DNA from: a virus
Length of the DNA stretch: 42,894 nt
Reading direction: 5' to 3' (one strand)
IMG/VR virus record: IMGVR_UViG_3300020477_000053
Coordinates: 1 to 42,894 of that record
Within the stretch, counting starts at the first letter, position 1. The number at the start of each line of letters is the position of its first letter. Below, one piece after another: positions 6,256 through 42,373 of the stretch. The notes under the pieces are model-generated. The model worked only from the letters and a program-made list of their open reading frames with translations. It was not told where the DNA came from and made no database searches. The translations under genes and the position numbers were made by a program.

Positions 6256-6982
6256 TTCATCTGGTAGCGGTGCTATACTCCAAAAGGATTTACTGAATTC
6301 TGCTTTAAGAAGTGGGCAGGAGCAACTGTTTTATGAATTTGGTGATATATTAACCAACAAAATAAATGATACAGTTCCTGGCACGACGGTAGCAAACCAA
6401 ACTACATATAATGTTCCCAGTGATTGCAACTTACGCAAGCCATTGGTGGTCTCTGTTAAGCGAGCTAGTGATGAAAATTATATTGCTATTCCATCGGGTA
6501 TCTCCCCTGCAGAGCATAACTATGAATCCATTAATACACAGCTTCCAGAGCGTTGGGATATTCTCGAAGATGGTGGCGTACCTAAATTAGAATTATGGCC
6601 TGCGCCTGATACATCAGATGACAATATTAGACTAGAATATAATTCTGGTTTAAAACCTTTTACAGAGGATATTGATTTAACATCGATAGAGCCTCAATTA
6701 ATACTACTTCATGGTATTACAACCATGAAAGCTCACTATCGACAACCTGATTACGAGATATACGCAGGACAATTAGAATCGCTGTTAGGACGTATAAGAG
6801 CAGCACTAACGCAGCGACATCGTCGATTCAAACGCACATCGAGTTTTGTACTCGCTGTATCTCCAGAGCAGCAACCGGTTAGTTCGAGTGTTACACAACA
6901 GATTAATAATATTATCTCATCCAGTACACATATTATACCGGCAAGTGGTTCTGGTACGTACATAGTAACCGCTACTTCATAG
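6197..6982 (+). CDS. Head-tail adaptor / tail tubular protein A-like
   Basis: Likely the ring that joins portal and tail (the role of P22 gp4 or T7 gp11). The N-terminal helical part (LLSLRTELAQRLGF, LNSALRSGQEQLFYEFG) followed by a beta-rich part (VPKLELWPAPD, NIRLEYNSGLKPFTED) and a helix that counts residues along the ring (LILLHGITTMKAHYRQPDYE) match the general pattern of podoviral adaptors, which typically contain a phrase like PKLELWPAP. Length 261. The Ser/Thr-rich C-terminal tail (from about 215) is extra. Ribosome site AAAAGGAGAAG lies inside the preceding gene. Confidence 0.75.
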   Translation: MAARTLLSLRTELAQRLGFSSSGSGAILQKDLLNSALRSGQEQLFYEFGDILTNKINDTVPGTTVANQTTYNVPSDCNLRKPLVVSVKRASDENYIAIPSGISPAEHNYESINTQLPERWDILEDGGVPKLELWPAPDTSDDNIRLEYNSGLKPFTEDIDLTSIEPQLILLHGITTMKAHYRQPDYEIYAGQLESLLGRIRAALTQRHRRFKRTSSFVLAVSPEQQPVSSSVTQQINNIISSSTHIIPASGSGTYIVTATS

Positions 6983-7933: not shown

Positions 7934-8287
7934 ATGGCGAATCATTTCACATTTGGCGCAGCAAATTTGTCAAATAATACGCGTACAGATGTTTATACAG
8001 TCCCACATACTGGTGGATCTTCAGCAAGCACTACTGCGGTTGTGCATTCATGCACTGTAGCTAACACGCACGCGACAGATACGGTCAATGTTACCCTAGA
8101 AGTATACGATAATAGCACTACTACTTACTTCCCAGTGGCCTCTACGGTGCCAGTACCTGCAGATTCTGCGCTAGTTTTGGATGGTGTTAAGGTAAATCTT
8201 GAGGCTCAAGACAAATTAACAGCAACATCATCAAATACTAGCGGTAATTTGACAGTTTTTGCGTCGGTTTTAAGGATAGAACCATAA
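7934..8287 (+). CDS. Small beta-rich virion protein
   Basis: A 117-residue Thr/Val/Ser-rich protein. Alternating residues (TAVVHSCTVANTHATDTVNV, LTATSSNTSGNLTVFASVL) predict a single beta-sandwich domain such as those used for capsid decoration or as fibre knobs. Strong ribosome site (ATAGGAGGG) upstream. It lies in the fibre array between a shaft protein and a linker protein, so a fibre knob or collar decoration is the simplest reading. No family was recognised with confidence. Confidence 0.65.
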   Translation: MANHFTFGAANLSNNTRTDVYTVPHTGGSSASTTAVVHSCTVANTHATDTVNVTLEVYDNSTTTYFPVASTVPVPADSALVLDGVKVNLEAQDKLTATSSNTSGNLTVFASVLRIEP

Positions 8288-8288
8288 A

Positions 8289-8735
8289 ATGGCATATTTA
8301 GGCAAGGTAGACATGAATGATGCTAATATCAAGCATTATTCATTAACCGGATCAACACTAACAACCGTAGATATTGGCTGGGTGCCACCCAGTGAGCAGA
8401 GTTTACGCGTAACTATTAACGGCGTAGTTCAGCAGGGTGATACTTTCAGTTATTCAGGCTCTAACCTTACCCTAGGTGGTCCTCTGGTTGCTACAGATAC
8501 GCTAGAGGTTGTAGGTATTGAGAGTGTTGGGCGCATACTCGTCCCAGCAGATGATTCTGTGACGGCGGATCAAACAAACTTTTTTCATAGGGATGCATTT
8601 TATGAAAATACACAAACTATAACTAGTAATTACACGATAACAGCAAGTAAGAACGCTATGACAGCAGGAGATATCTCAGTGAATAGTGGAGTAACTGTAA
8701 CAGTCCCCACTGGGGCAAGGTGGGTAATAGTATGA
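8289..8735 (+). CDS. Fibre linker protein, MAYLG type
   Basis: A 148-residue protein beginning MAYLGK, an N-terminus common in fibre proteins of marine podoviruses. It has a beta-rich core (QSLRVTINGVVQQGD, LEVVGIESVG), a short NFFHRDAFYENTQTITSNYT segment and a C-terminus with SVNSGVTVTVPTGARWVIV, the typical end of a fibre stalk. It is similar in plan to the product of 11998-12432 and the two are probably distant paralogs. The stop overlaps the next start (ATGA). Confidence 0.65.
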   Translation: MAYLGKVDMNDANIKHYSLTGSTLTTVDIGWVPPSEQSLRVTINGVVQQGDTFSYSGSNLTLGGPLVATDTLEVVGIESVGRILVPADDSVTADQTNFFHRDAFYENTQTITSNYTITASKNAMTAGDISVNSGVTVTVPTGARWVIV

Positions 8736-10433: not shown

Positions 10434-10594
10434 GTTTTATCGTTGGGATTGCGCGAATAGCGCATTGGTTTTTAATACCGTTCTTGGTGGTATGGATGAC
10501 AATAGCACCGAACGACATGCTGCCTAAGTGTTTATCGGATGCTAAGGCACAAATAGCAGAACAATTTAGAGGAAGTTACTTTGGCACTAACTAA
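10430..10594 (+). CDS. 54-residue single-span membrane protein
   Basis: A GTG start overlaps the previous stop (GTGA) and opens a 54-codon frame that fills an otherwise empty gap. One hydrophobic segment (about residues 9-27, AHWFLIPFLVVWMTIA) is followed by a charged C-terminal tail (LPKCLSDAKAQIAEQFRG). The end overlaps the start of the next fibre gene by 14 bases. Size and topology fit a small holin-like or accessory membrane protein, though its place inside the fibre array is unusual. Lack of other coding in the gap and the tight overlaps support it being real. Confidence 0.5.
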   Translation: MSFIVGIARIAHWFLIPFLVVWMTIAPNDMLPKCLSDAKAQIAEQFRGSYFGTN

Positions 10595-11297
10595 AATTGA
10601 AGCATCAAACATAGCAGCAGGAGCTGTAGCATCTTCTGGGTTTTTAGGTGTTGTAACTTATACTGCCAGCGGTACTTATACACCTCGTGCTACTACGAAT
10701 GGCACCGCGGGGAATGAAGGTAATGCAAATGTTACAAAGATTATTGTAGAAGTTCAAGGAGCAGGGGGAGGTGGTGGAGGTTCAGGCTCGGGAGGTTGGG
10801 GTGCTGGTGCGGGTGGCGGTGGCTACGCAAGAGCATATAGAGATTTAACGAATATCGACAAATGCACTATTACTGTAGGTGACGGTGGAACTGTTGGTAA
10901 TAATGCTAGTGGCGGTGCAGGCGGATTATCGAAAATAGAAAAAGCGGCTTCTGGTGGTGGTTCTGGTACTTTTGCTGATGTTGTAGGAAATGGAGGAGCA
11001 TTTGGAGTTTATGATGCTGGTGATGGTGGGGTTGGTGGAACTGGAACGGGAGGCTTCATCAACATAACTGGTGGTTCTGGTAAGCCTAATCGCATGGGAC
11101 TAACTACATTTAGTCACGGCGGAGGAACACCCTTCTCTGATGGGGGTATTGACCCAACAATCGCTGTACAGAATCCACCCCCAAGCACCCCAGGATACGG
11201 TGGTGGAGGCAGTGGATCATCTAACTCAAGCGCAGGTTCTGGCGCATCTGGCGCAGAAGGTGCTGATGGAATCATTATAATCTACGAGTACGCATAA
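10581..11297 (+). CDS. Glycine-rich adhesin paralog 1 (TTG start)
   Basis: A 238-residue glycine-rich protein, first of four class A paralogs. The TTG at 10581 is chosen because it gives MALTKIEAS, matching MALTKVDKS of the next paralog, and an AGAGGAAG ribosome site lies five bases upstream. After the anchor module comes VTKIIVEVQGAGGGGGGSGS, then long Gly/Ala/Ser tracts and a final DGIIIIYEYA strand. Dense glycine tracts bounded by beta strands recall the polyglycine II sandwich of T-even-type adhesins such as S16 gp38; this is analogy, not shown homology. Likely the host-range tip. Confidence 0.7.
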   Translation: MALTKIEASNIAAGAVASSGFLGVVTYTASGTYTPRATTNGTAGNEGNANVTKIIVEVQGAGGGGGGSGSGGWGAGAGGGGYARAYRDLTNIDKCTITVGDGGTVGNNASGGAGGLSKIEKAASGGGSGTFADVVGNGGAFGVYDAGDGGVGGTGTGGFINITGGSGKPNRMGLTTFSHGGGTPFSDGGIDPTIAVQNPPPSTPGYGGGGSGSSNSSAGSGASGAEGADGIIIIYEYA

Positions 11298-11998
11298 TGG
11301 CATTAACTAAAGTAGACAAATCGTTATTAGAAACTACCTCCGGCACAGCGAGTGCATCGACCTTTCTAAGAGGTGATGGAACATGGTCTAGTGCTGCTGC
11401 TGGGTTTCATAAGGTAACTGTTTTTACGACTACAACCTCTGCTGGTGGTTATTCTCCTGATACGGGTGTAACTAAACTGATAGTAGAAGTGCAAGGCGCT
11501 GGCGGCGCAGGATGCAAATCGCAAACAAATACTACAAAAGCTACTTCAGCGGGTGGCGGTGGTTACGCGATGAAATCTTTGACTGTTACAAGTAGCGACA
11601 CTATGACCATTACGATTGGTTCTGGAGGCGCGGCACAAACAACAAATGATACGGCTGGAGCCGCTGGCGGTGATTCAAAGTTTACTTCTGTAACGGGTAC
11701 ATCATTTACTGAAGTTAAAGGTAATGGTGGAAATGGTGGTACTTTTACAGCATATGGTATGGTGTTAGGAGGAACAGCGTCAGGTGGTGATTTAGAAATT
11801 CCTGGAGGTACAGGTACCGGCGGTGGCATGGGTGAGTATGGCGGTGATTCCATGTTTGGTCGTGGCGGAGGGATAATGTGGACGGGACAGTTGACTTCTA
11901 ATATAGCAACTGGTTATGGATCAGGTGGCGGCGGCTCTTACCAATTAACCTCTGGGGCCGGTATGGACGGCGTTGTCATCGTGTGGGAGTATAAATAA
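11297..11998 (+). CDS. Glycine-rich adhesin paralog 2
   Basis: A 233-residue class A member. The ATG overlaps the previous stop (TAATG). Modules in order are anchor MALTKVDKSLLE, hinge STFLRGDGTWSSAAAGF, strand VTKLIVEVQGAGGAG, a glycine-rich head with GGGYAMKSL, and closing strand DGVVIVWEYK. The last 29 bases match the end of paralog 3 at 27 of 29 positions, a likely recombination seam. Probably a receptor-binding tip variant. Confidence 0.7.
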   Translation: MALTKVDKSLLETTSGTASASTFLRGDGTWSSAAAGFHKVTVFTTTTSAGGYSPDTGVTKLIVEVQGAGGAGCKSQTNTTKATSAGGGGYAMKSLTVTSSDTMTITIGSGGAAQTTNDTAGAAGGDSKFTSVTGTSFTEVKGNGGNGGTFTAYGMVLGGTASGGDLEIPGGTGTGGGMGEYGGDSMFGRGGGIMWTGQLTSNIATGYGSGGGGSYQLTSGAGMDGVVIVWEYK

Positions 11999-12000
11999 TG
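11972..12000 (+). repeat. 29-bp seam repeat, copy 1
   Basis: The end of glycine-rich paralog 2 plus the next start codon. It matches 13763-13791 at 27 of 29 positions, while the flanking coding sequence diverges. A shared 3' seam of this sort would let homologous recombination add, delete or swap adhesin genes. Confidence 0.7.
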
Positions 12001-12432
12001 AGTTATATAGGATCAGGACCACTTTACGGAAACTATCCCAGCGAAAGTATAACTGCGGATGGTTCTACTTCATACACACTAAGTCGAGCTCCTGTGAGTT
12101 TAGGAGGCATCATCGTTTGCTTGGATGGCGTTAAACAAAACTCAGCAGATGGTGCTTATGCAATCTCTGGAACTACACTAGACTTTGGCACTGCTGTAAC
12201 TGCGGGTATTGAGATAGAAGTGGTATATTTAGGCGTTCAAGCTAACAGTGTAGTGATTGATAAAACACTCGGTGCAGCAGATACAGATCAAGCAGCGATT
12301 ATCAGAACTAACTTTAACGATATTGACCAAAGTCTAAGCATCGCCTCAACAGATAACGGTGTTAGTGGAGGTCCGATAACAATCTCTGGGAGTGCTACTG
12401 TGACCGTATTGGGTAACTGGAGTATCGTATGA
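11998..12432 (+). CDS. Fibre linker protein, MSYIG type
   Basis: A 144-residue protein beginning MSYIGSGPLYGNYPSE, an N-terminus typical of T7-like fibre proteins in marine phages. Beta strands with a VCLDGVKQNSADGAYAISG segment lead to a helix-like AADTDQAAIIRTNFNDIDQS and a stalk end (TISGSATVTVLGNWSIV). It is probably related to the product of 8289-8735. ATG overlaps the previous stop; its stop overlaps the next start. May link an adhesin to the shaft. Confidence 0.65.
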   Translation: MSYIGSGPLYGNYPSESITADGSTSYTLSRAPVSLGGIIVCLDGVKQNSADGAYAISGTTLDFGTAVTAGIEIEVVYLGVQANSVVIDKTLGAADTDQAAIIRTNFNDIDQSLSIASTDNGVSGGPITISGSATVTVLGNWSIV

Positions 12433-13049
12433 GTAAGCTAAAAGTAGACCAAATTTCTAAAGCTACAGGTGCAGCGCCTGCTATTTTTACGTTGCCAGCG
12501 GCTGATGGAACGGCTGGACAATTAATGAAGACTGATGGTTCCGGTAATCTGGGGTTTGTTAGTTCTGCTGTAGGTGGAAAAATCGGACAAGTTGTTCAAA
12601 CTACAAAAACTGATTCTTGGTTGCAATCTACAACTGACCAAACGTACTACAATCCAACAGGTTTCTCAAGAACGATAACACCGGTGGCTACATCGAGCAA
12701 GATTTTAATTCTAGCTTGTTGTTCTTGGAGCGCAACAACCAGTTATGAAGTAGGTACAAAAATTACTAGAACAATAGGTGGTGTAGAAGAAGATATTTTA
12801 ATTGGTGATACAGCGGGAAGCAGAACAAGAACTTTTTTATCAGAAAGAAGTAATGGAGCGGCTGACTACGCAACAACAACTGTGATATTACTAGATAGTC
12901 CAAATACAACATCAGAAATTACATATAAACCTGTTGCCGCTACAGAATCTTCAGCAACTCTTTATTTAAATAGGCAACACAGTGATTCTGATTCTGCTGG
13001 AGAGTTTAGAGCAGCTTCAAATATCATTTGCGTAGAGGTGTTAGCATAA
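12429..13049 (+). CDS. Fibre/adhesin paralog, class B
   Basis: A 206-residue protein paralogous to the product of 8732-9313. The anchor MSKLKVDQISKATGA is followed by the shared hinge (GQLMKTDGSGNLGFVSSAVGG) and a beta-rich C-terminal domain with SSKILI, a DSPNTTS loop, YLNRQHSDSD and a terminal IICVEVLA strand. It starts with an ATGA overlap. The hinge is the same as in the glycine-rich class, so C-terminal domains appear to be exchanged on a common N-terminal module. Confidence 0.7.
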   Translation: MSKLKVDQISKATGAAPAIFTLPAADGTAGQLMKTDGSGNLGFVSSAVGGKIGQVVQTTKTDSWLQSTTDQTYYNPTGFSRTITPVATSSKILILACCSWSATTSYEVGTKITRTIGGVEEDILIGDTAGSRTRTFLSERSNGAADYATTTVILLDSPNTTSEITYKPVAATESSATLYLNRQHSDSDSAGEFRAASNIICVEVLA

Positions 13050-13789
13050 TGGCATCAACACTTATAGTAGATCAAATACAGAAGACAGGCGGATCGACAA
13101 CTGCCTTAACGCTTCCGACATCTAATGCATCGGCTGATGAGTTCTTGCAGAACAATGGTTCTGGAGTACTGAGTTGGGCAAGTGCTGCTGCTGGATTCAA
13201 TTCTGTTATAGTTTATACATCATCGACTAACTGGGTTAAATCAGCTAGGCCAGCAGGAATTACTAAGGTAATTGTTGAGGTGCAAGGAGGAGGTGGCGGT
13301 GGCGGTTATAGCGGTGCTTCCGATTATGCTGTCGCAGGATCTGGAGGCGGATACGCAAGAAAGTTTATAGATGTATCTTCGGTTACTCAAGCGTCTATTT
13401 CTGTTGGGCTAGGTGGCACAGCAGCGGGAACATCGTCTGTTGCTGGTGGTGATGGTGGGGATAGTTCTTGGGATGATACGTCTTATGGCGGGTCTTCAAC
13501 GGTAACTGGTGTTAAGGGTGTGGGTATATACGGCAACTTTTCTAGGTCTGCTGGTGGTACTGCGACAGGTGGTGATATTAATATTCCCGGAGGATCGGGT
13601 GATAATTGCTCTGCCAACTCCAGTATGCTTGCCGGAAGTTCTTTTTTGGGAACTCCCGGTCTCAATGGCAGGACAGGAGAAAGCGCGATACAGGCATCAT
13701 TTGGTTACGGTGCTGGTGGACCCGCTGGGTATTCAGTAACTTCTTTGGCCGGGATGCCTGGTGTTGTCATAGTATGGGAGTATAAATAA
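13049..13789 (+). CDS. Glycine-rich adhesin paralog 3
   Basis: A 246-residue class A member. The start is set at 13049 (MASTLIVDQIQ), where the ATG overlaps the previous stop and the N-terminus matches its paralogs, rather than at an upstream in-frame codon. The order is anchor, hinge DEFLQNNGSGVLSWASAAAGF, strand ITKVIVEVQGGGGGG, glycine-rich head with GGYARKF, and closing GVVIVWEYK. Its 3' end nearly repeats that of paralog 2. Confidence 0.7.
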   Translation: MASTLIVDQIQKTGGSTTALTLPTSNASADEFLQNNGSGVLSWASAAAGFNSVIVYTSSTNWVKSARPAGITKVIVEVQGGGGGGGYSGASDYAVAGSGGGYARKFIDVSSVTQASISVGLGGTAAGTSSVAGGDGGDSSWDDTSYGGSSTVTGVKGVGIYGNFSRSAGGTATGGDINIPGGSGDNCSANSSMLAGSSFLGTPGLNGRTGESAIQASFGYGAGGPAGYSVTSLAGMPGVVIVWEYK

Positions 13790-13791
13790 TG
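13763..13791 (+). repeat. 29-bp seam repeat, copy 2
   Basis: The end of glycine-rich paralog 3 plus the start codon of paralog 4. It differs from 11972-12000 at only two positions. Confidence 0.7.
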
Positions 13792-14532
13792 GGTAAATTA
13801 ATAGCAGCACAGATCGCAGCAAGCACCACAGACGATACATTTAACATACCAGCGAATGATGGTTCTGCTGGTGAATTCTTAAAAACAGACGGCAGTGGTG
13901 CATTATCCTTCGCTAGCGCAGCTGGTGGGTTTCATCAGATGGTCGTTAGATCAGTTACAGGATCCGCTACTTACTCACCAGCCGCAGGAGTGACTAAAAT
14001 TATTGTTGCCGTTCAAGGAGCGGGTGGCGGCGGTGGAGGGGGTCATAGCTCTGGATATGGTAGTGGGGGTTGCGCTGGTGGTTACGCATTAAAATTCTTA
14101 ACGGGTGTAGCATCTACAGATGTGATGACAGTTGTTGTAGGGGCCGGTGGTGCTGGTTATACAGGCGGTGGTAATGGCACGGCTGGAGGTGCATCACAAT
14201 TTGTTAGTGTATCTGGTGGATTACATCCATTTACTACCGTTGAGGGTTTAGGTGGTGGAGAAGGTAAATATAATGCTGACCCTGACTATGGTGGTGTGGC
14301 TTCTGGTGGAGATATCAATATAGATGGCATGCGAGGATCAGACAATAATGGTGGTAATTATCTTGGTGCGCCATCTATGTTAGGATTTGCTGGAGCAAGG
14401 ATTGGGACTGATGTAGGCGCGGCTAAACCAAGCACAGGTTATGGCTCAGGAGGAACTGGTGCGTATTCTATAACTAATGGTGTTGGTGAGCCTGGCCGAA
14501 ACGGTGTTGTAATTATCTGGGAATATAAATAG
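13789..14532 (+). CDS. Glycine-rich adhesin paralog 4
   Basis: A 247-residue class A member: anchor MGKLIAAQIAAST, hinge GEFLKTDGSGALSFASAAGGF, strand VTKIIVAVQGAGGGG, glycine-rich head with GGYALKFL, and closing NGVVIIWEYK. The ATG overlaps the previous stop. This is the last adhesin in the array, so the phage carries four glycine-rich tips with the same frame and clearly different head loops. Confidence 0.7.
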   Translation: MGKLIAAQIAASTTDDTFNIPANDGSAGEFLKTDGSGALSFASAAGGFHQMVVRSVTGSATYSPAAGVTKIIVAVQGAGGGGGGGHSSGYGSGGCAGGYALKFLTGVASTDVMTVVVGAGGAGYTGGGNGTAGGASQFVSVSGGLHPFTTVEGLGGGEGKYNADPDYGGVASGGDINIDGMRGSDNNGGNYLGAPSMLGFAGARIGTDVGAAKPSTGYGSGGTGAYSITNGVGEPGRNGVVIIWEYK

Positions 14533-14822: not shown

Positions 14823-15179
14823 ATGAGATACTTATTGGGAGCGTTACTGCTGTTATTGCCGTTTAGTTCCTCTGCGGAAAGTCCAACATTCTTTAGAACG
14901 GTAGCACCTATACAGGCATTATGCGTGATGGGAGGACCGCAACCTATCATAGAGGAATTACTTTCCAAGTATAATGAAAAGCCCGTGCATGCTTTGATGG
15001 TTACACCGACCATCCAGATGTATATTACAGAGAACTGTAATAACCCTAGCAGCACGCTTTTCTTACACAATAGTCGGGTTAATCAAACTTGTATATTCTG
15101 GTCAGCTAATGACTGTTTAAACACTATAGAAACAGAGAGTTTACCCGCAAAAACCCCTGAGGATAATACAGACACATGA
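14823..15179 (+). CDS. Exported cysteine-containing protein, unknown
   Basis: A 118-residue protein with a clear Sec-type signal peptide (MRYLLGALLLLLPFSSSAES, cleavage likely after SSSA). The mature part has four cysteines (in ALCVMGG, ENCNNP, QTCIFW and NDCLN) that could form two disulfides in the periplasm. The ATG follows the previous stop directly. It opens the membrane and lysis-like cassette. I do not recognise the family. A periplasmic role in lysis or in blocking superinfection are both possible. Confidence 0.65.
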   Translation: MRYLLGALLLLLPFSSSAESPTFFRTVAPIQALCVMGGPQPIIEELLSKYNEKPVHALMVTPTIQMYITENCNNPSSTLFLHNSRVNQTCIFWSANDCLNTIETESLPAKTPEDNTDT

Positions 15180-15364
15180 AACACTTGAAAGACAACAATA
15201 TGGGTTATTTTGAGCATCTAGGATTCGCTTTAAAGCTATCTGGACAGCTCGTAATTATGGCGGTAGTAGGCGTAATACACGCCGTATTTCCGTTTATTTT
15301 CGCTAATTCTGTATCTGCCGGCGTAAAAGCTATGGATACTAAACTCCAAGAATTAGCTGGATAA
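15176..15364 (+). CDS. Small membrane protein, DUF6356-like
   Basis: A 62-residue protein with the pattern YFEHLGFALKLSGQLVIMAV, then IHAVFPFIFANSVSAGV. The EHLG helix, a hydrophobic span and the HAxFPFxF motif resemble the DUF6356 family of short membrane proteins found in phages and bacteria. One or two membrane passes are possible. The start overlaps the previous stop. Function unknown; its position among membrane proteins makes a holin or holin-partner role worth considering. Confidence 0.6.
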   Translation: MKHLKDNNMGYFEHLGFALKLSGQLVIMAVVGVIHAVFPFIFANSVSAGVKAMDTKLQELAG

Positions 15365-15630
15365 TGGCAGAGAATAACGGCGGATGGCACCTGTCGAAAG
15401 GCCTAAGCGTATCGCACATCCTGTCAACTGCCGTTATTGCTATTGGTTTCTTCACGTATGTAACAGGGATTGAACAAGAAACCATGATAAATAAGATGTC
15501 AATAGAAAGTTTATCAGAGAGGATGGATAGAACTGATAAGAGACACACAGAAGAATTTGGGGAGATTAAAGAAATGCTAAAGCACTTGAGCGTAAAAATA
15601 GATCGTTTAGGAGTCAGACGTGATCAATGA
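15364..15630 (+). CDS. Membrane-anchored coiled-coil protein
   Basis: An 88-residue protein with one N-terminal membrane span (about 16-34, ILSTAVIAIGFFTYV) followed by a charged amphipathic helix (SIESLSERMDRTDKRHTEEF and on to KIDRLG), probably a coiled coil in the periplasm. This topology is shared with inner-membrane spanin subunits and XhlA-like lysis proteins. The gene overlaps its neighbours on both sides. A lysis function is inferred from topology and context only. Confidence 0.6.
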   Translation: MAENNGGWHLSKGLSVSHILSTAVIAIGFFTYVTGIEQETMINKMSIESLSERMDRTDKRHTEEFGEIKEMLKHLSVKIDRLGVRRDQ

Positions 15631-15932
15631 CCATTACCCCGACAGCGGCAAAGAAGATAGAGGAGATCCTGAGCGATTCAGAATGTTTAAGAATCGAAGT
15701 CAATGGCGGTGGTTGCAGTGGCTTCACGGTTGGCTTGTCCAAGACGTCTGGGAGAGAAAAAGACGACATGCTATTGAGCGAGAATACGGTTATAGACTCC
15801 ATCTCGGCGGGGTATTTAACGAACGCGACCCTAGACTGGATAAATGATCCTTTCTCGCCTACGTTCAAGTTTGACATCCCAAATACCAAATCTTGTGGAT
15901 GTGGCAATTCATTCCAATTGGAGGAAGCTTAA
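15627..15932 (+). CDS. A-type iron-sulfur cluster carrier (IscA/ErpA/HesB-like)
   Basis: A-type carriers accept Fe-S clusters from the scaffold and deliver them to apo-enzymes. All family marks are present in 101 residues: an N-terminal TPTAAKKIEEIL helix, LRIEVNGGGCSGF with Cys30, a beta-rich middle with SAGYLTNATLDWI in place of the usual YLxGxxIDY, and a C-terminal SCGCGNSF with Cys90 and Cys92. These correspond to the three conserved cluster cysteines of IscA. Length is normal for the family. The gene overlaps both neighbours, so it is integral to the late operon and not a host-flank artefact. It is an auxiliary metabolic gene in an unexpected place, between membrane/lysis-like genes. Confidence 0.9.
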   Translation: MTITPTAAKKIEEILSDSECLRIEVNGGGCSGFTVGLSKTSGREKDDMLLSENTVIDSISAGYLTNATLDWINDPFSPTFKFDIPNTKSCGCGNSFQLEEA

Positions 15933-16024
15933 TGGAATCATTAAAAAATTGGGTAAAGGAAAAACCTATTTATGCAGTAATTATACTCGCTGTATTAGTC
16001 TCTGTGGCCTACAACTTGTTCTAG
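15932..16024 (+). CDS. 30-residue membrane peptide
   Basis: The ATG overlaps the stop of the Fe-S carrier (TAATG) and opens a 30-codon frame: MESLKNWVKEKP followed by a single hydrophobic span IYAVIILAVLVSVAYNLF. GAGGAAG upstream is a fitting ribosome site. Most of it overlaps, in another frame, the N-terminal part of the candidate lipoprotein (15949-16359). Such nested membrane peptides are common in lysis cassettes. Supported by overlap, ribosome site and clear hydrophobicity, but very short. Confidence 0.5.
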   Translation: MESLKNWVKEKPIYAVIILAVLVSVAYNLF

Positions 16025-16359
16025 TAGGATGTACGAGCCTGAAGAAAGCAGCGTTGATAGGGGGCGGATCGTTGGGAGCGGGTGCGATTGCCTCGATTGC
16101 GACATCGGGGACTGCACCTGTGTTACTGGCCTCAGCGGGAGGTGCCTCTGTGACAAGTGTGGTTGCGGACGTGATGACACCATCGAAAGGAGGCAGCATG
16201 CATACAGCAGCTAGTTGTGCGCCAGATAATTTCTGGACGTTATTAGGATCTCTCGTAGAAATGGGAGGTTGGTTATTAATATTGGTAGTAGTTGCACCAA
16301 TGGTGCTCGGTTGGATCTTACCAGGTCCGTTAGAGAGGAAGAAAAAGAGTGAAAATTGA
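15949..16359 (+). CDS. Lipoprotein with C-terminal membrane anchor, candidate unimolecular spanin
   Basis: The open frame (available from 15844) contains a lipobox (LVGC) preceded by a hydrophobic stretch (ISLCGLQLVLVGC), then a Gly/Ala-rich middle (LIGGGSLGAGAIASIATSG), and a C-terminal span (WLLILVVVAPMVLGWIL) with a basic tail. An outer-membrane lipid anchor plus an inner-membrane C-terminal span is the plan of unimolecular spanins such as T1 gp11, and the length (about 136) is similar. I propose the TTG at 15949 as start because it gives a basic n-region (MGKGKTY) before the hydrophobic core; this is uncertain. A second in-frame ATG at 16198 has a better ribosome site (AAAGGAGGCAGC) and would make a separate 53-residue membrane protein. 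Confidence 0.5.
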   Translation: MGKGKTYLCSNYTRCISLCGLQLVLVGCTSLKKAALIGGGSLGAGAIASIATSGTAPVLLASAGGASVTSVVADVMTPSKGGSMHTAASCAPDNFWTLLGSLVEMGGWLLILVVVAPMVLGWILPGPLERKKKSEN

Positions 16360-16651
16360 CCCGAAATTCTTTGGTTTTATGTTGTTCATCATCGCGCAGA
16401 CAGGTAGTGCGATATGGTGGGCTTCTGGGCTATCTGCAGAGGTAAAGCGTATAGGAGGCATCCAGGGACGCGCTATACCAGCTCTAGAAGCAGAAGCTAA
16501 GCAGTGTGGTATCGAGATACATAATCTCAAGAAGCTCACAGGGGACCAGAAAGAGGTTCAAGAGGCAGTGAAAGACCTAGATGTGATGGTATACAGGTTA
16601 GAGTCTATTGAGAGCATGTTAGACAAGATATTAGCAACAAAGGTAAGGTGA
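16349..16651 (+). CDS. Membrane-anchored coiled-coil protein (i-spanin-like topology)
   Basis: A 100-residue protein with a GTG start that overlaps the previous gene by 11 bases, and a purine-rich AGAGGAAGAAAAAGA upstream. An N-terminal membrane span (FFGFMLFIIAQTGSAIWWA, about 7-25) is followed by a long amphipathic helix (LEAEAKQCGIEIHNLKKL to VYRLESIESMLDKIL). This is the topology of inner-membrane spanins. It may work with the lipoprotein encoded upstream, or simply be an accessory membrane protein. Last gene of the membrane cassette. Confidence 0.6.
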   Translation: MKIDPKFFGFMLFIIAQTGSAIWWASGLSAEVKRIGGIQGRAIPALEAEAKQCGIEIHNLKKLTGDQKEVQEAVKDLDVMVYRLESIESMLDKILATKVR

Positions 16652-22582: not shown

Positions 22583-25500
22583 ATGGCTACACTCAACGAA
22601 GCTTTTGATATTCTAGATCAACTTAAGGCTAATAACGATCCTCGTTATGCTCTTGTTAGGGACTCATTACAGCAGCAGATAGATGCTAATGCTGAACGAA
22701 TAGCAGAGTATCGTCGCTTATCTTATCAGTCTCAACCTGGTCCTCATTGGGCTGGTGCAAGTTCTATAGGTTACGCTCCACCTCAAATAGGTTACGATAC
22801 ACCTAAGGATACTTCCATTTGGGGTCGTATCAAAGATACAGCAAGCGATGCAATACAAGCCCTTCCTAGATCGCGATGGCTTGGTCCACTCGACCCACTT
22901 ATCGGTGGATTACAATCCGCTGAACGTGCTAATTTTGGCGATCATACATGGAGCGGTCTACAGCAGCTACCACACGCCGCAGAAAGAACCTATGATTTAA
23001 TCAATCTACAGCATCTTCTTAGACAGAGTGCAGTTTCTCCTACTACCTATGGTAGAAGTCCAGGCGACTCTAACTTACCAGTTCCACCTGATATGACTTG
23101 GGCCCCAGATGGTCCTCTAATAAATAGAGCATCTTTTGAGTCTATGGAGCCTGTTGTTACACCTCCAACAACGCCTGATGGCGCTCCATTACAAGACTGG
23201 AGACTACACAGAGCTAATAGACCAGCCTTAGATAATCGCCGTGTTGACCAGGAAATACAAGCGCAAGCTCCTGGTTTGGTTGCTAACATATTGCAGCAAG
23301 GACAAAATATAGAGGATATCAGGGAGAGAACACGCCGAGAGAGTGGGGATTTTAGCGGTGGTTTGCAAAATATCATGGGCGCAACTTCTCATTTGGATGT
23401 CTTAAAGAGAGTTTATGAGAATCCAGAAGCCGCTTGGGCAACCTTTGGTGAATCACTTGGTTACTCTCTACCAACATTAGTAGTCAGTTTGTTAGCTGGT
23501 TGGGCATCTGCCCCATTCAGGGTCTTAGCATCTAGTGGCGTTGCCTTACCCGGTGCGTTTGCTACAGAAATGTCATTTGCGGCCGAAGAAGTATTACAGC
23601 AATTAGGCATAGATATAAATAATCCTGAGCATGTTAAAATGTTAATGGGAGATCCTAGCATGATGGCTGCCGCCACAAATGCTATGAAAACAAAAGCATC
23701 GGTTATAGCGCTGTTTGAATCTCTTGGTATTGGAGCTAGTGTAAAATTAGGTTCACTTGCTAGACATGCTAAAACATTACCACGCGCAGCAGGATATGGC
23801 GTAGGTGGTATTGGCGCACAAATGTTAACAGAAGCAGGTGGTGAGGGTTTTGGAACTAAGCTAGCAACTGGTAAGACTGACATGCCTGGTTACATGCTTG
23901 AAGGCTTGATGGGTGCTGGTGCTGGTGCGATAATAACTATACCAACAGCTATGCAAGGCGCTTTTGGTGGACAAACCGCACAGGTGAAAGATGTAATACG
24001 AGTATTAGCTAAGGCTAAACAGAAGATGGTTGCTAGCGGTACAATTGACCAGAAACAATTTACTATATTAAGTGAAACTCAAGCTGCACTTGAAGATTCT
24101 CAATTATCTCCTCGCGAAAAAGCAATAGTACTAAGAAAACTCACTGACGCAGCCAACCAAGGAGCTCTTAACGCAGATATAGCTTTAGATTTGGGTATAG
24201 ATATTGAATCTACAATCCCTGAGGCTAGAGAAGCTGGTGCAGCCACACGTCTTCCAGAACCATCATCTACTGTTGTAATAGACGAATCCACAAACATTGG
24301 TTCTGCATTAGAACAAAGAGGGCAACCAACTAGACAAGTACCAGTTGCCGCTGAAACTACACCTGTTAGCGTTTTCGATGCTGATGCTATATTAAACTCA
24401 TTACAAGAAGAGATGGGCGATGTTCGCGTTACCCGTAGGATGGTGAAGCAACGTGCTCTGGAATTGCTTGGTCATGAAGTTCAAATACATGGAGCTTTAC
24501 GAGCCGCCTTTACTGCGCTTGGTCTGAAAACAAGCGATTTAGATAGGTTCTTAAATGATATTTATTCAAAGTATCAATCAGAGATACAGGCGTGGTTACT
24601 GACGCCAATAGGTAGAGCGTACAGTGGTGACGCAAAAACAATGCAGGCAGAAGAGTGGCTTGCTAATGATTTGAAAGCTAAATCTGCTAAAGGTCAATTT
24701 GCACGATTATTACAACGCAAATTAAAACAAGAAGCAAATCTTGATATCACAGGAGAAAATATAAAAGAACTATACGATATTATAGATGCGTTGAAGAGGC
24801 AGTCTGAGGGTAAGGCTACGACCATAAGGCCACCGGCTAGATTTGATGGTGAAACTTTTGAAGCTGATACATCTGGAACTCGTTTTGCTAAAGGCGATCC
24901 TATAGACCCAAGTCGTCGCAAGTTTATGAAGCAAGTAGGAGGTGCTGTAGCAGGTGCTGCGGTAGATCCAAGTATATTACTTGAGCCCGCAACCCAAGAA
25001 GCAGAGGTAGCATCACGCATCCCAGGTTCTGTATATGAGTTCTCTATCGCTGTAGATCCTAACGCAGGTTGGACTAGTGCAGATGACCCAGCAGAAGGTG
25101 CCATAGACGTTGCATTTACTCACGATCCTAATACCAATGAAGTAATGGTATATGAAGGCGATGAGGTTGTCGACGAATTTGTGGTAGATGATATGCATGC
25201 TGATAAAGAGGTGCTTGAGTATGTAAGAGATAAGTATGGTCGTGTCAATATAAACGACGCTCGTGTTCAACGAGAAGAGATGGAGAGAGATCCTGTAACA
25301 GGTGAGGGTGGCTTTGACTACTGGGGTGATGCTGATCAAAACTTTGATAATATGGCTAGAAGTGTCATACGTGGTGAAGCGACTATGGCAGGTACGGAAA
25401 AGGTCGATCGAGGATCGGCTTATGATATCTTTGAAGAGCCTGAAACTCCACGCGTTGAGGAAGAGACTGTTGAAAAAACAGATGCAGAGTTATATGTAGA

Positions 25501-28500
25501 AACAATAGATGAGATCATGAGTATATATGATGAGGATGCTACGGCTGCAGAAGCAGCTGCTGACGGCTCCCTCAATGATCGCATTATATCTTACGCCGCA
25601 GAAACTCCGTTCACTAGAGAAGAACTTTGGGAAGGCGTTAACCAACGCATAGAGGCGTTAGAAGATACAGGAACACGCTTCGCTAAACGCGCTGCAGATA
25701 TGACGGAAGCTGAAAAGCTAAACCGTGATGTTCGCAATGATTTCGCTAAAGGTCCTTACAAAGAGATTATTGGACGAGAAGATGAAGCAGAAATACGGGC
25801 GCGTATTAAACGTCTTGGTAACCTGTATGGTCCTATGGGTCAGAAACGTGGCATAGAACCTGGCGATAGAGCTACAGCTAAAGAACAGGCACAGAATGCT
25901 ATAGATAATGTCGATGCCTTCGAGGAGTTTATGGCTCCATTTGAGGTGCAGATGAAAGCAAAACCTGCTAAGTCTAGAACAGCTGCTGGTAGACGAGAAA
26001 AATACGCGGAACGCAAGGGTATTACTGTCGCAGAGATTCTTAGCTATCGAGATAGAGGCAAAATCCATCCAATGGAAAAGAAGATGTCTTATACCTTTGG
26101 TACGGAAGAGATCGATAGATTAGAAGCCGAAGGTGATATCACAGCAGATGAAGCAGAGACTAGGCGAAGAACGCTAAACGACCTACGCAATCAGTTAGGT
26201 GGCAAGATGCCTCCTGGAGCCAAGCGTAAGGCTACTGAAATTGTATATGGCATTGGTGACTATGCGAATATAGAAGCTTGGGGATATACAGAAGCAGAAA
26301 CAGCTGGTATGGAAGAGCGTGCAGAAGTAGCACGTGGTAAAGAGCGTGTGCGTGGTTTACGTAGAACAGAGAAGACAGAAAAAGAATTAGAAGAGATTAT
26401 AGGTTCTGATGTTACACCTACAGAGATGATGCAGATATCTGCTATGCGCGAAGTAGAAGCGTTTGGTCGTTTTACCTCTGATGAAGCGCGGTTAATTTAC
26501 TTGCGTGATAAAGAAGCCATGCCTGCTTCTGAGAGGCGTGCTTTAGATGCCTTCATGAGAGATATGAGAGGTTGGGACGAAGCTGCATATGAAGCACAAC
26601 TAGCAGCTGAGAGAGAAGCACAGGTAAAGAAAGTTGGTGTAACACGTGTCAAGCAAACTGCTGCACAACGCAAAGCAGAACTTAAATCTATGAAGGAAGC
26701 ACAAGCTCCTATAGAGAAGCGCAAGCATGTACAGGTAGAACCTGATTTCTTTGACACACTTGAAGATCCTATGTTTACTATTCAAGGTGAGTCTATACCT
26801 GATGGTTATATGGAGCTCAATGAAGACGGTGAATGGTCAGAGGTAGATGATACTGATACTAGCACTAGATATGCAAAAGCATTAGGAGCTCCTGGCGAAT
26901 GGGTTACGCACAAGGTTATTGGACCTGGCAAGGTTGTAAGTATCGATGAGGTAGACACTTATATAGATTTTATGAATCGCAAAGGCGTTACTAGACTACG
27001 GAACGATATTGGTGCTGATCTGGTTGAAGAGAATACTAGAAGTGTCGATGAATTAGAGAAGGAGTACGCCAAGGCGCAAGCGGAACTAGATCAAGATGAA
27101 GCAGCGGCTGTAGACACAAGTAGCAAAAGGTCTTCAGCAAAAATGAAGGCTTTTAATGTATTGTTAGCGCAGCTTGGTATAGATAAGCCAATAAGTGAAT
27201 TGTCTAATAAACAGTTAATAAATATTTGGAAAGCATGGGAGAAAAAGGATGTAGGTGTGTTACCGTATAGCGTTAAAAGACTTATTCTTGATAGGATAAC
27301 TCAGGTCGAAGGAACTGATTATAGTAATGAATTTAAGTCGGGCGCGAGAGTGCTTAAACTCGGTACTAATATAAAATGGAATAAAGAACATACTTACGAG
27401 CAAAGTGGTTTATTAAGTAGCGGATTAAACACCATTAAAAATCTAAGATTCATGCCTGAATTTCTCAACTTAAAAAAAGCATCATTAGCAACTGTTAAAA
27501 CTGAAGAAAGGTTTGACGAAGAAGCTGAAATACTTGATGATTGGTTTGAGGCTAAGTTTGAAGCATTTGATGAATCCAATAGCTTATTAGATAACCTACA
27601 GAATACATTAAAACTATTTGTAAAAAAACATCCTGACATAAAAGTAAATAAGACTACTGGTGAAACATTAGAGCAAACTTTTGTAGAAAAACCAATTAAT
27701 GCGCAAGCAGCTGATTTAGGTTTTGTTGAGTTGCTTAATGATTTGGATTATATTACCGAGGGATTAGTAGATTTTCAAGATTATGCATCTTCGTTACGAG
27801 AATATAAATTTGGCGAAGAGTTTGCATCTGTTAGAGAACAACGTAAAGAAGATACAAAAAGACAAAAAGAAAATCTTGAAAGACACATAGCAGAAGGATT
27901 CACGCGTTTCGCTAAGCGAGCAAAAGGCGAGTCATACGAAGAACACTTCAACAAGAATTTCTGGTATACGTTAACATCATACCTGTGGGGTAAGCCAGTA
28001 CAAGCTATTCGTGACTTCAACAAACTCTCTAGATTCGGTCAAGCTAAAGCAGATGTGCCTGCGGCTGATGAGATCGCAGATGAAATACAGAGAGCGCATT
28101 CGTCTACACAGAGAGCTGAACCGCTAATATACGGTACAGATATAGTACAAGATACATCTATAAGAACAGGTCAGTTCTTCACGCGCCTAGCGCAGATCTT
28201 TTCAAGGGTTACAGCTAGACTTGGCGATATAGAGACGAGAGAGAATCAAATGCTAGTTGATATACTCACTGGTAAGGTGCGTATAGAAGAGCTTGATAAT
28301 GCAGAGTATCGCGAAGCAGCGAAGCTTCTTAGAGAACTTATGCAGGATGTGTACAACTATGCTAAGACTGAAACCAAGGGATTAAAAGATCCGTTAGACC
28401 TGCGTGGTCATGGTGATACTCTGCTTCCACGGGTATGGAATATAGAATTCCTTGCTACCCGTCGGGGTAAGGCTAAGTTCTTGAAAGCTATACGAGCAGC

Positions 28501-33523: not shown

Positions 33524-33808
33524 TTAAAAGGGTAGATCGTCATCCATATCGCTGGAGCTACTTCGGCCTCCTCCCTTCTTGGGCTCTGAGAACCTCATGT
33601 TAATTACCGCATTTTCTGCAAGGTAATCAAAGGCCTTCCATACTTTGTTATTGTCAGCGTCCTCGTTAGGGTTGATCCATGCGGCCACGCGCATATCCGT
33701 ACCATTATAATTACCTGGTCCAGATAATGCTGGATCTTTAGCCGTTTTCCTCTCGTTGAGGAAGAATCGTCCTTTGTTAGTATTATCAAATGCTTGTTTT
33801 CCTGCCAT
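33524..33808 (-). CDS. Small single-stranded DNA-binding protein candidate
   Basis: A 94-residue protein with the SSB signature tail: a Gly/Ser linker (KKGGGRSSSSDMDDD) ending in LPF. That acidic DDxPF tip is how SSBs recruit replication partners. The body (GRFFLNERKTAKDP, DMRVAAWINPNEDADNN) is shorter than a bacterial OB-fold SSB and not clearly alignable by eye. The start is set at 33808, where the ATG overlaps the previous stop (TAATG) and GGAGA lies seven bases upstream, rather than at an ATG 39 bases earlier. Position in the replication operon fits. Confidence 0.7.
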   Translation of the reverse strand: MAGKQAFDNTNKGRFFLNERKTAKDPALSGPGNYNGTDMRVAAWINPNEDADNNKVWKAFDYLAENAVINMRFSEPKKGGGRSSSSDMDDDLPF

Positions 33809-34674
33809 TAGCGCTTCTCCTGCCTCTCGGCTCTTAGTTGTGGACAAAAATTACGTACATTACAGTACGTCCAACACCGCTTGGGTGATCCGGGTCTGTG
33901 TTCTATGGTAGATTTAGTCGGATCAATCAAGTTGTTCAAATAATCTATTGCATCTTGCTCTGTGTCTAACAGACGTAAAGCATTTTTTCTGCCTTCTTTC
34001 ATGACAGCCCATTTTTCTTCAGACTGCCATCGCTCCTCATCGTTACAGTAGTGCTCTTCATCGAAGTGTCTACTCAACTGTTGATGAATGTAAGCTTTTC
34101 GGTGCATAGGTTTCCATAGCGGAATATCCACTACAGTCATCGCATGATCTGGATACGTTTCTACATCAGCTGCTTGTCTAGCATTCCAATCACGGGCCAT
34201 AGCTACGATAGCTAACCCCTTGACTTTCCAGTCATTTTCTTGCATGAGATCAGCTAAGATATTCAACTGATATTCCCACGATTTTTTATAACCGTTTACG
34301 AGGTTCCAGGCGCTGACCGTCTTAACATCGTATAAGATTTTAGATGACATGTCATAGACGTCAATCTGTCCTGTAACCACTTTACCATCATAATCGTGGT
34401 AGAAACGCTTTTCAGTTAGTACATCTGAATTGCTTTCGTTAGTGTTTTCAACTACATAGTGTACTGCAGATCCCCAAATAGACCACACTCGGTCTTTAAC
34501 ATCTTCGATGAGTTCGTCTGCATGCTTAAACCGTAATGCGTTTATTTGAGGGCTGTCAATAAGCCGTGTAACTGAAATATCACTAGGTTTGGTACCCTTA
34601 GTGTAGTTGTTCGTGGTAAGGGTATGATACAACCAGTGCGGATAATTGTTTTCATTCGTGAATTTGCGTGCCAT
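33808..34674 (-). CDS. RecB/Cas4-like PD-(D/E)XK nuclease with candidate Fe-S cysteines
   Basis: A 288-residue nuclease of the phage-exonuclease type. Core residues: His72 (GSAVHYVVE), Asp105 (VTGQIDVYD), Asp116 and Lys118 (LYDVKTV), and the QxxxY-like helix from Gln136 (YQLNILADLM). C-terminal Cys267, Cys271 and Cys277 (CWTYCNVRNFC) plus Cys210 resemble the four-cysteine iron-sulfur staple of Cas4 and AddB nucleases. Likely resects or processes DNA ends for recombination-dependent replication. It overlaps the preceding gene by 23 bases and couples to the ssb-like gene. Confidence 0.82.
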   Translation of the reverse strand: MARKFTNENNYPHWLYHTLTTNNYTKGTKPSDISVTRLIDSPQINALRFKHADELIEDVKDRVWSIWGSAVHYVVENTNESNSDVLTEKRFYHDYDGKVVTGQIDVYDMSSKILYDVKTVSAWNLVNGYKKSWEYQLNILADLMQENDWKVKGLAIVAMARDWNARQAADVETYPDHAMTVVDIPLWKPMHRKAYIHQQLSRHFDEEHYCNDEERWQSEEKWAVMKEGRKNALRLLDTEQDAIDYLNNLIDPTKSTIEHRPGSPKRCWTYCNVRNFCPQLRAERQEKR

Positions 34675-41124: not shown

Positions 41125-41532
41125 TTACGCAGCTAATTGTTGCTCAATACCTTCAGCAAGTTCGTCAGCAAAACTTTCGACTTTATCAGCTGGCCAGATC
41201 TTTAAATAGCCTGGCATTTGCTCATAACGACAGAAAGTATCAACACCATCTTCAGTATCACCGAATATAGCTTTTAATTTACTGTTGTGCAAAGACACAA
41301 TAGCAAATCGTCGCTCTTCCGGATGAAGCTTCGAAGGCTTTTTAACTCGCGTAAAGACTTTGTTTGATCCCTCAGGATCAGACTCAATCTCGATTGAATC
41401 ATCGTTATACGTTACTTTAAACTTGGAACCAGGTGAAAACCCATCCAAACCATATCGTTGCTCTTCCAACCACAAGCGTCGTTTACCCTTTTGTGTATGG
41501 ATTTTCATCGGTACTAAAGCTATTCCTGACAT
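41125..41532 (-). CDS. Early protein, paralog of 42029-42373
   Basis: A 135-residue protein that shares most of its length with the product of 42029-42373: MK(I/L)HTQKGKRRLWLEEQ, GF(S/K)PGS(K/R)F, SDP(E/N)G(S/T)N, VFTRVK, ERRFAIV and FGDTE(D/N)GVDT. It has an extra helical tail (VESFADELAEGIEQQLAA). The start at 41532 is chosen because GAGGA lies eight bases upstream and it aligns with the paralog's MSQKP. The WLEEQ..GFxPGxxF opening recalls small AbrB/SymE-like beta folds, a weak hint of DNA or RNA binding. Copy 2 of the early promoter-like block lies upstream. Codon use is AT-rich like the rest of the genome. Confidence 0.75.
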   Translation of the reverse strand: MSGIALVPMKIHTQKGKRRLWLEEQRYGLDGFSPGSKFKVTYNDDSIEIESDPEGSNKVFTRVKKPSKLHPEERRFAIVSLHNSKLKAIFGDTEDGVDTFCRYEQMPGYLKIWPADKVESFADELAEGIEQQLAA

Positions 41533-41586
41533 AGGCATTGTCCTCAAAAGTGATGAATAAAATGTATCTCCAATTCTAGTTTTTAG

Positions 41587-41948: not shown

Positions 41949-42032
41949 CTAGTACAGTGAAAGTACGCCAGTAAGGATTGCCAAAGTAAACAAAGATGTG
42001 TATACAACCATGCGAATCTCAAGATCGCTCAT
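41949..42032 (-). CDS. 27-residue membrane peptide
   Basis: The ATG overlaps the stop of the preceding early gene (ATGA). The 27-codon frame reads MSDLEIRM followed by one hydrophobic span (VVYTSLFTLAILTGVLSLY) and ends 21 bases before a strong terminator. Coupled start, clean membrane span and terminator spacing make it a credible gene despite its size. An early-expressed membrane peptide could inhibit a host membrane function or block superinfection; this is speculation. Confidence 0.6.
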   Translation of the reverse strand: MSDLEIRMVVYTSLFTLAILTGVLSLY

Positions 42033-42373
42033 GATGCCACCGGCATAATCTTGATGTAGCCTTCAGACATCTCGTACGACAGTGGAGTATCGACACCATT
42101 TTCGGTATCGCCAAAAAGCTCTTTGAGTCGAGCATTGTGAATCCCAACGATGGCGAAGCGACGCTCCATCGGGATTCGTTTCGAGGCCGCTTTGACGCGG
42201 GTGAACACCGTGTTGGTACCGTTCGGATCGGACTTAATTTCGACCGAATCTTCATTGTACACAACGTTGAACCGCGAACCGGGTTTGAAACCGGGCAATC
42301 CGTACTTCTGTTCTTCGAGCCACAGTCGGCGCTTGCCTTTCTGTGTGTGAAGTTTCATTGGCTTTTGGCTCAT
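42029..42373 (-). CDS. First early protein, paralog of 41125-41532, with atypical codon use
   Basis: A 114-residue protein (MSQKPMKLHTQKGKRRLW) sharing nearly its whole length with the product of 41125-41532. It is the gene closest to the divergent promoter region and is preceded by copy 3 of the promoter-like block. Its third codon positions are visibly richer in G and C than those of its paralog and of neighbouring genes (frequent GCG, CGC, GTC, TTC, CCG), so it was probably acquired from another phage or host rather than made by a recent local duplication. Function unknown; likely an immediate-early regulator or host-interaction protein. Confidence 0.75.
   Translation of the reverse strand: MSQKPMKLHTQKGKRRLWLEEQKYGLPGFKPGSRFNVVYNEDSVEIKSDPNGTNTVFTRVKAASKRIPMERRFAIVGIHNARLKELFGDTENGVDTPLSYEMSEGYIKIMPVAS

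Follow-up and report, generated by a model that had tools for sequence, protein, structure and literature searches.

An A-type Fe-S carrier of an apparently phage-only lineage, encoded in a probable lysis cassette

A-type carriers (ATCs) of Fe-S clusters work in the cytoplasm on apo-proteins. In Escherichia coli, carriers of the ErpA type act last in the delivery of clusters to nearly every target that has been studied, and they are indispensable under aerobic conditions (PMC8593673). Viruses also encode such proteins: ATC genes have been described in 14 environmental viral genomes (EVGs), viral ATC and IscU proteins having been proposed to act on Fe-S proteins of both virus and host (Nishimura et al., 2017; PMC5332604), and erpA has been reported from some HMO-2011-type phages (PMC9038755). 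A separate set of phage proteins, the unimolecular spanins such as T1 gp11, is characterized by an N-terminal lipobox and a C-terminal membrane span (PMC6139136).

The window, by which the whole 42,894-nt stretch of viral DNA analysed here is meant (IMG/VR record IMGVR_UViG_3300020477_000053), encodes a carrier that has the fold, the GGGCSGF and CGCG motifs and the three cysteine ligands in common with the ErpA/A-type family (TIGR00049, PF01521). Unlike cellular members of that family, its gene sits in a phage cassette and not in an isc, suf or erpA locus; its product falls into a phage-only lineage on a branch of length 1.24, does not reach the equivalog cut-off of ErpA, IscA or SufA and, compared with ErpA, has short deletions around residues 18 and 52. 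Like the viral genomes of Nishimura et al. (2017), the window is a viral genome with an A-type carrier; however, the passages of that paper drawn on here describe no lysis-cassette position, no phage-only lineage across cassettes and no tandem paralogues, and their examples include large T4-like genomes rich in radical-SAM genes, whereas radical SAM is absent from the present contigs (27 searched). The HMO-2011-type phages, which are marine, resemble the present ones in having an Fe-S insertion gene, and the window terminase is ~34% identical to theirs; the passages on their erpA give no gene context, and the likeness to the window carrier is one of gene presence (PMC9038755). Phage-encoded ATC and erpA genes are thus already known, and residence in a lysis cassette and a phage-only lineage appear to be new relative to the cited passages of these two papers.

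The carrier gene is a genuine open reading frame for a phage-encoded A-type Fe-S carrier with intact ligands and intact GGGCSGF and CGCG signatures, as the first-pass annotation had claimed. Its product passes the cut-offs of Pfam PF01521 (39.6 bits; cut-off 26.3) and NCBIfam TIGR00049 (76 bits; cut-off 58.8) and matches PHROG 17776 (E=5e-17), and a profile built from an alignment of its relatives (A1) finds, in the PDB, HI1723 (2apn; E=5e-16) as well as IscA and SufA of E. coli. A model predicted with AlphaFold2 (mean pLDDT 83) has the beta-sheet fold of IscA and SufA, with low confidence in the C-terminal cluster loop (residues 89-92), and is matched by Foldseek with probability 1.00 to SufA (2d2a, E=1.2e-6) and IscA (1r94/1s98). 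Cysteines occur at positions 20, 30, 90 and 92, GGGCSGF occupying residues 27-33 and CGCG residues 90-93, so that the internal cysteine and the terminal CxC of the family are both present. The best-scoring specific model is ErpA, yet its equivalog NF010147 is missed (61.1 vs 117 bits), as are the IscA and SufA equivalog cut-offs; the protein is therefore named an A-type carrier and not ErpA, and its partner specificity may have changed. The antisense open reading frame at 15614-15907 was rejected as a gene, because its apparent conservation merely mirrors that of the carrier.

Relatives were recovered from 20 viral loci by a single-sequence scan and from at least 407 IMG/VR contigs by a profile scan, the best 80 of which were retained. 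In alignment A1, whose 18 rows are 58-99% identical to the window carrier, C30, C90 and C92 are invariant throughout, as are W71, D74, P85-K88 and the GGGC and CGCG motifs; C20 varies. The standard motif pair is found in 81 of 87 distinct carrier sequences, and the other six represent a separate paralogue ending in CGGCG. Loss of the cysteines in close relatives, the outcome that had been named beforehand as telling against the assignment, is thus not what was found. The median pairwise dN/dS is 0.19 (65 pairs, computed over the 213 nt of the carrier outside the frame overlap with the downstream lipoprotein gene, LIPO), indicating purifying selection. The intact ligands and this selection argue for a functioning carrier, which would bind and transfer Fe-S clusters. 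A search of 50,697 phage records found neither the lineage nor its LIPO partner; the matches there are carriers ~28-36% identical, and several of the records resemble bacterial contigs.

In a tree of 124 rows, built from 106 alignment columns and with some long branches meeting, 65 carriers of the cassette type, among them L064 with a loose placement, lie on the phage side, separated from the cellular carriers and seven other viral rows by the long branch mentioned above, with support 100/99. In this tree, the cellular groups of ErpA type and of IscA type both appear to exclude the phage lineage (100/99, on few columns), the cellular sample consisting nearly entirely of Alphaproteobacteria plus two E. 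coli sequences. Judged from this tree, the cassette carriers are an old phage-only lineage and not a recent loan from a host. The CGGCG paralogues constitute a second, separate phage lineage, which sometimes stands in tandem with a cassette carrier (L184, L185, L187, L188, L120). Paralogues of this type also occur in L101, G003 (15209-15481) and G005 (6507-6779), with CGGCG wherever the full sequence was read, and lie behind tail-fibre genes or else form a tandem with the cassette carrier; L120 has three A-type proteins. A further carrier branch (L107, L171-L176) lies directly after a small-terminase-like gene, outside the membrane cassette, and the 268-kb contig L020 has two A-type carriers off the cassette lineage, at 7998-8321 and 10851-11177, ~2.5 kb apart.

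Among cellular proteins, the closest to the carrier that were found are of the ErpA type and come from Alphaproteobacteria (37-47% identity), although the search patterns favour such proteins. This pattern-biased proximity and the distribution of DUF6356, which among 14 control genomes is found in Caulobacter only and occurs in 10 of 58 alphaproteobacteria, lead us to suspect alphaproteobacterial hosts. A prophage search of 385 alphaproteobacterial genomes with the LIPO profile returned nothing convincing (two matches at ~21-22 bits). A phage carrier with 68% identity is present in contigs of a Neomarinimicrobiota MAG (L201, L202); these are probably phage contigs that were binned into it, and they were therefore excluded as host evidence.

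The genes around the carrier are listed in Table 1.

Table 1. Positions and properties of the carrier gene, its neighbours and a possible client gene in the window.
Feature	Position	Strand	Properties
SEC, signal-peptide protein	14823..15179	+	two invariant Cys (C34, C90)
DUF6356 small membrane protein	15176..15364	+	PF19883, 55.9 bits
TMCC1, membrane segment (N-terminal) and coiled coil	15364..15630	+	88 aa; from hydropathy; conserved upstream neighbour
A-type Fe-S carrier (ATC)	15627..15932	+	ATG start, 101 aa; ligands C30, C90, C92
TM30, single-membrane-span peptide	15932..16024	+	30 aa, MESLKNWVKEKP...; conserved in relatives L001-L016
LIPO, lipoprotein	15949..16359	+	lipobox LVGC, Ala/Gly-rich periplasmic part, C-terminal membrane span, basic tail
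TMCC2, second membrane/coiled-coil protein	16349..16651	+	100 aa
Cas4/AddB-like exonuclease, possible Fe-S client	33808..34674	-	phrog_2139, E=8e-40; C210, C267-x3-C271-x5-C277

TMCC1 ends inside the start codon of the carrier, giving a 4-nt ATGA overlap, and the start of TM30, a gene absent from earlier lists of open reading frames because it is small, shares 1 nt with the carrier stop (TAATG). The first-pass annotation had described the carrier as locked into a late operon by overlaps on both sides; the upstream overlap and the 1-nt downstream overlap with TM30 stand, whereas the longer downstream overlap, with 15844-16359, depends on use of the longest possible start of LIPO. That gene may begin anywhere from 15844 to 15949, and its lipoprotein signal suggests a true start close to the latter. 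The G-C-T of the LIPO lipobox is invariant in 17 aligned rows, and a strict lipobox regex matches 64 of 86 LIPO open reading frames, most inspected misses being variants or shortened frames. An upstream 4-nt overlap recurs in 31 of 72 mapped carrier genes, with a membrane/coiled-coil gene in 27 and with DUF6356 in four. Single-span peptides of the TM30 type, 30 to 41 aa long, are conserved downstream of the carrier. From its strand and neighbours, the carrier would be made late. The tail-fibre-like gene run at 10581-14532 (+) contains several members that group together as paralogues.

When profiles of the window neighbours were searched in all loci and gene order was mapped in 100 non-redundant loci, a recurring module emerged, comprising the signal-peptide protein, TMCC1/TMCC2 or other small membrane/coiled-coil proteins, DUF6356, the carrier and LIPO, and in relatives HNH-TerS-TerL often adjoins it. 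In more distant phages, DUF6356 is found close upstream of the carrier. For 31 non-redundant loci found via the carrier and having at least 1.5 kb on each flank, cassette neighbours are present on at least one side in 26 and on both sides in 21. Intact cassettes in the non-redundant mapped set number 53 with the carrier and eight without it, and the loci found via LIPO instead number 31 and six, respectively; because both scans kept the loci nearest to the window, these fractions describe its neighbourhood among viral carriers. The carrier is an accessory component of the cassette, because certain cassettes are without it, whereas individual phages can have two or three carriers. Genes for 2OG-Fe(II) oxygenases (PF13640, PF13759) are located in the cassette region of the carriers of L186 (2885-3517) and L187 (882-1514).

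The neighbourhood of the carrier is, with good probability, a lysis cassette. In L066, an endolysin with GH108 and PG_binding_3 domains lies between TMCC1 and LIPO, that is, in the slot of the carrier and with a 4-nt overlap likewise, so that the designation is well supported, short of proof. LIPO has the topology of a unimolecular spanin, a lipoprotein signal followed by a C-terminal membrane span in common with T1 gp11, but differs in having no match to a PHROG spanin family and in the Ala/Gly-rich composition of its periplasmic part. TMCC1, TM30 and DUF6356 have membrane spans and are without a holin family match. TMCC1 is holin- or i-spanin-like: four of 16 members match weakly to an 'Rz-like spanin' PHROG, and a distant homologue is found in Curvibacter phage PCA1 close to a DUF5675 gene. 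A fold search with SEC against the PDB gave no match at E<=0.001. No endolysin or holin family was recognized in the window, and GH108 is present in one of 27 contigs searched (L066) and absent from the other 26; the designation therefore leans on synteny and topology. The membrane/lysis-like setting proposed in the first reading is accordingly borne out, by a context conserved across many phages and by the endolysin of L066.

Two further observations concern other parts of the window. The 2567-aa virion protein encoded at 22583-30286 (+) contains a Tat-like twin-arginine motif (DPSRRKFMKQVGGAVAGAA) at about residues 777-800, similar DPSRR[KQ]F[ML] motifs occurring in large open reading frames of L011, L143/L342 and L317. 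At 41125-41547 and 42029-42373 (-), a neighbouring, paralogue-like pair has the motif KxHTQKGKRRLWLEEQxYGL in both members.

The simplest reading, and the most likely one, is that the carrier supplies host proteins with clusters at a late stage of infection. In the model favoured here, a cluster-binding carrier of a phage-specific lineage, stably resident in the late lysis (egress) cassette, would be expressed together with the lysis proteins, accept Fe-S clusters from the ISC/SUF system of the host and pass them on to those host apo-proteins whose clusters are being turned over or become scarce at this stage, candidate recipients being respiratory complexes and possibly IspG/IspH. Respiration and the proton motive force would thereby be sustained, and triggering of the holin would be held off until virions are assembled. 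The coupling to lysis genes suggests that Fe-S supply matters at that stage, for example for the proton motive force until the holin fires. We give this full model about even chances.

The carrier might instead exist to mature one particular Fe-S protein of the phage (the first-pass annotation had suggested maturation of a phage or host Fe-S protein), and the window does encode a candidate client, the Cas4/AddB-like exonuclease in Table 1, whose C210, C267, C271 and C277 are invariant in five aligned relatives and likely bind a [4Fe-4S] cluster. A dedicated client is possible in the window because of this exonuclease on the carrier's own contig, and the proposal that viral ATC/IscU proteins serve viral and host Fe-S proteins alike, in the passages cited (PMC5332604), points the same way. 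The exonuclease, however, belongs to the replication module and is encoded on the other strand, only eight of 44 contigs have phrog_2139, and the nucleases of the carrier-positive relatives G009, G011 and G012 are of the PDDEXK_1 type and have no such cysteine cluster, so that this client is not general. Radical SAM (PF04055) is absent from 27 contigs, although a C-x3-C-x2-C protein of G005 (L313:8367-9014) could escape that profile, and such absences are weak evidence because many contigs are incomplete. A dedicated client was accordingly rejected as the general role of the carrier; it is possible for the window's own exonuclease, but as an explanation of the carrier it is improbable. The first-pass annotation had further suggested iron in the virion, and in this Ferrojan-type reading the carrier would load the particle with iron or Fe-S clusters. 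The reading draws on the tail-fibre neighbours and the late position only; a limited look at the virion proteins brought up no sign of metal sites, ATCs are cytoplasmic and act on apo-proteins and nothing links the carrier to the particle, so that this proposal found no backing and is extremely unlikely.

An effector or timer of lysis would account for other features. Such a carrier would gate TMCC1/LIPO by iron or redox state, or would poison Fe-S delivery to IspG/IspH and so halt cell-wall lipid synthesis, for which the Qin prophage lysis protein YdfD, which kills through inhibition of the [4Fe-4S] enzyme IspG (PMC8835842), offers a precedent. The carrier occupies the slot of the L066 endolysin, is translationally coupled to TMCC1, belongs to a lineage diverged from host carriers and lies in a window without a recognized endolysin. 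Retention of all three ligands, needless for a pure poison, together with the existence of carrier-less cassettes and the possibility that endolysins of unrecognized families are encoded elsewhere in the genome, makes this role quite unlikely, and the more specific proposal that a divergent carrier was recruited into the lysis machinery, where it would set or trigger lysis via Fe-S supply or via iron/redox sensing on the coupled membrane proteins, is very unlikely. Variability of the cassette, from which the carrier is sometimes missing, and the occurrence nearby of 2OG-Fe(II) oxygenase, glycosyltransferase or methyltransferase genes could also be explained if the carrier were an accessory, AMG-like passenger, functionally unconnected with lysis and kept at a site that tolerates extra genes, with tail-fibre genes on one side and lysis genes on the other. 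Such a passenger would hardly be expected to hold its place, overlapping tightly at start and stop, in phages that are deeply diverged, nor would its paralogues be expected in late regions likewise, and we regard this explanation as rather unlikely.

Phage Fe-S carriers were previously known as scattered auxiliary metabolic genes. A phage-only carrier lineage in the probable lysis cassettes of many uncultured phages suggests that Fe-S supply, or the iron/redox state, matters at egress, and DUF6356, the signal-peptide protein, TM30 and LIPO become genes of interest through their co-occurrence with the carrier. The finding connects iron physiology with the timing of lysis in a way that can be tested.
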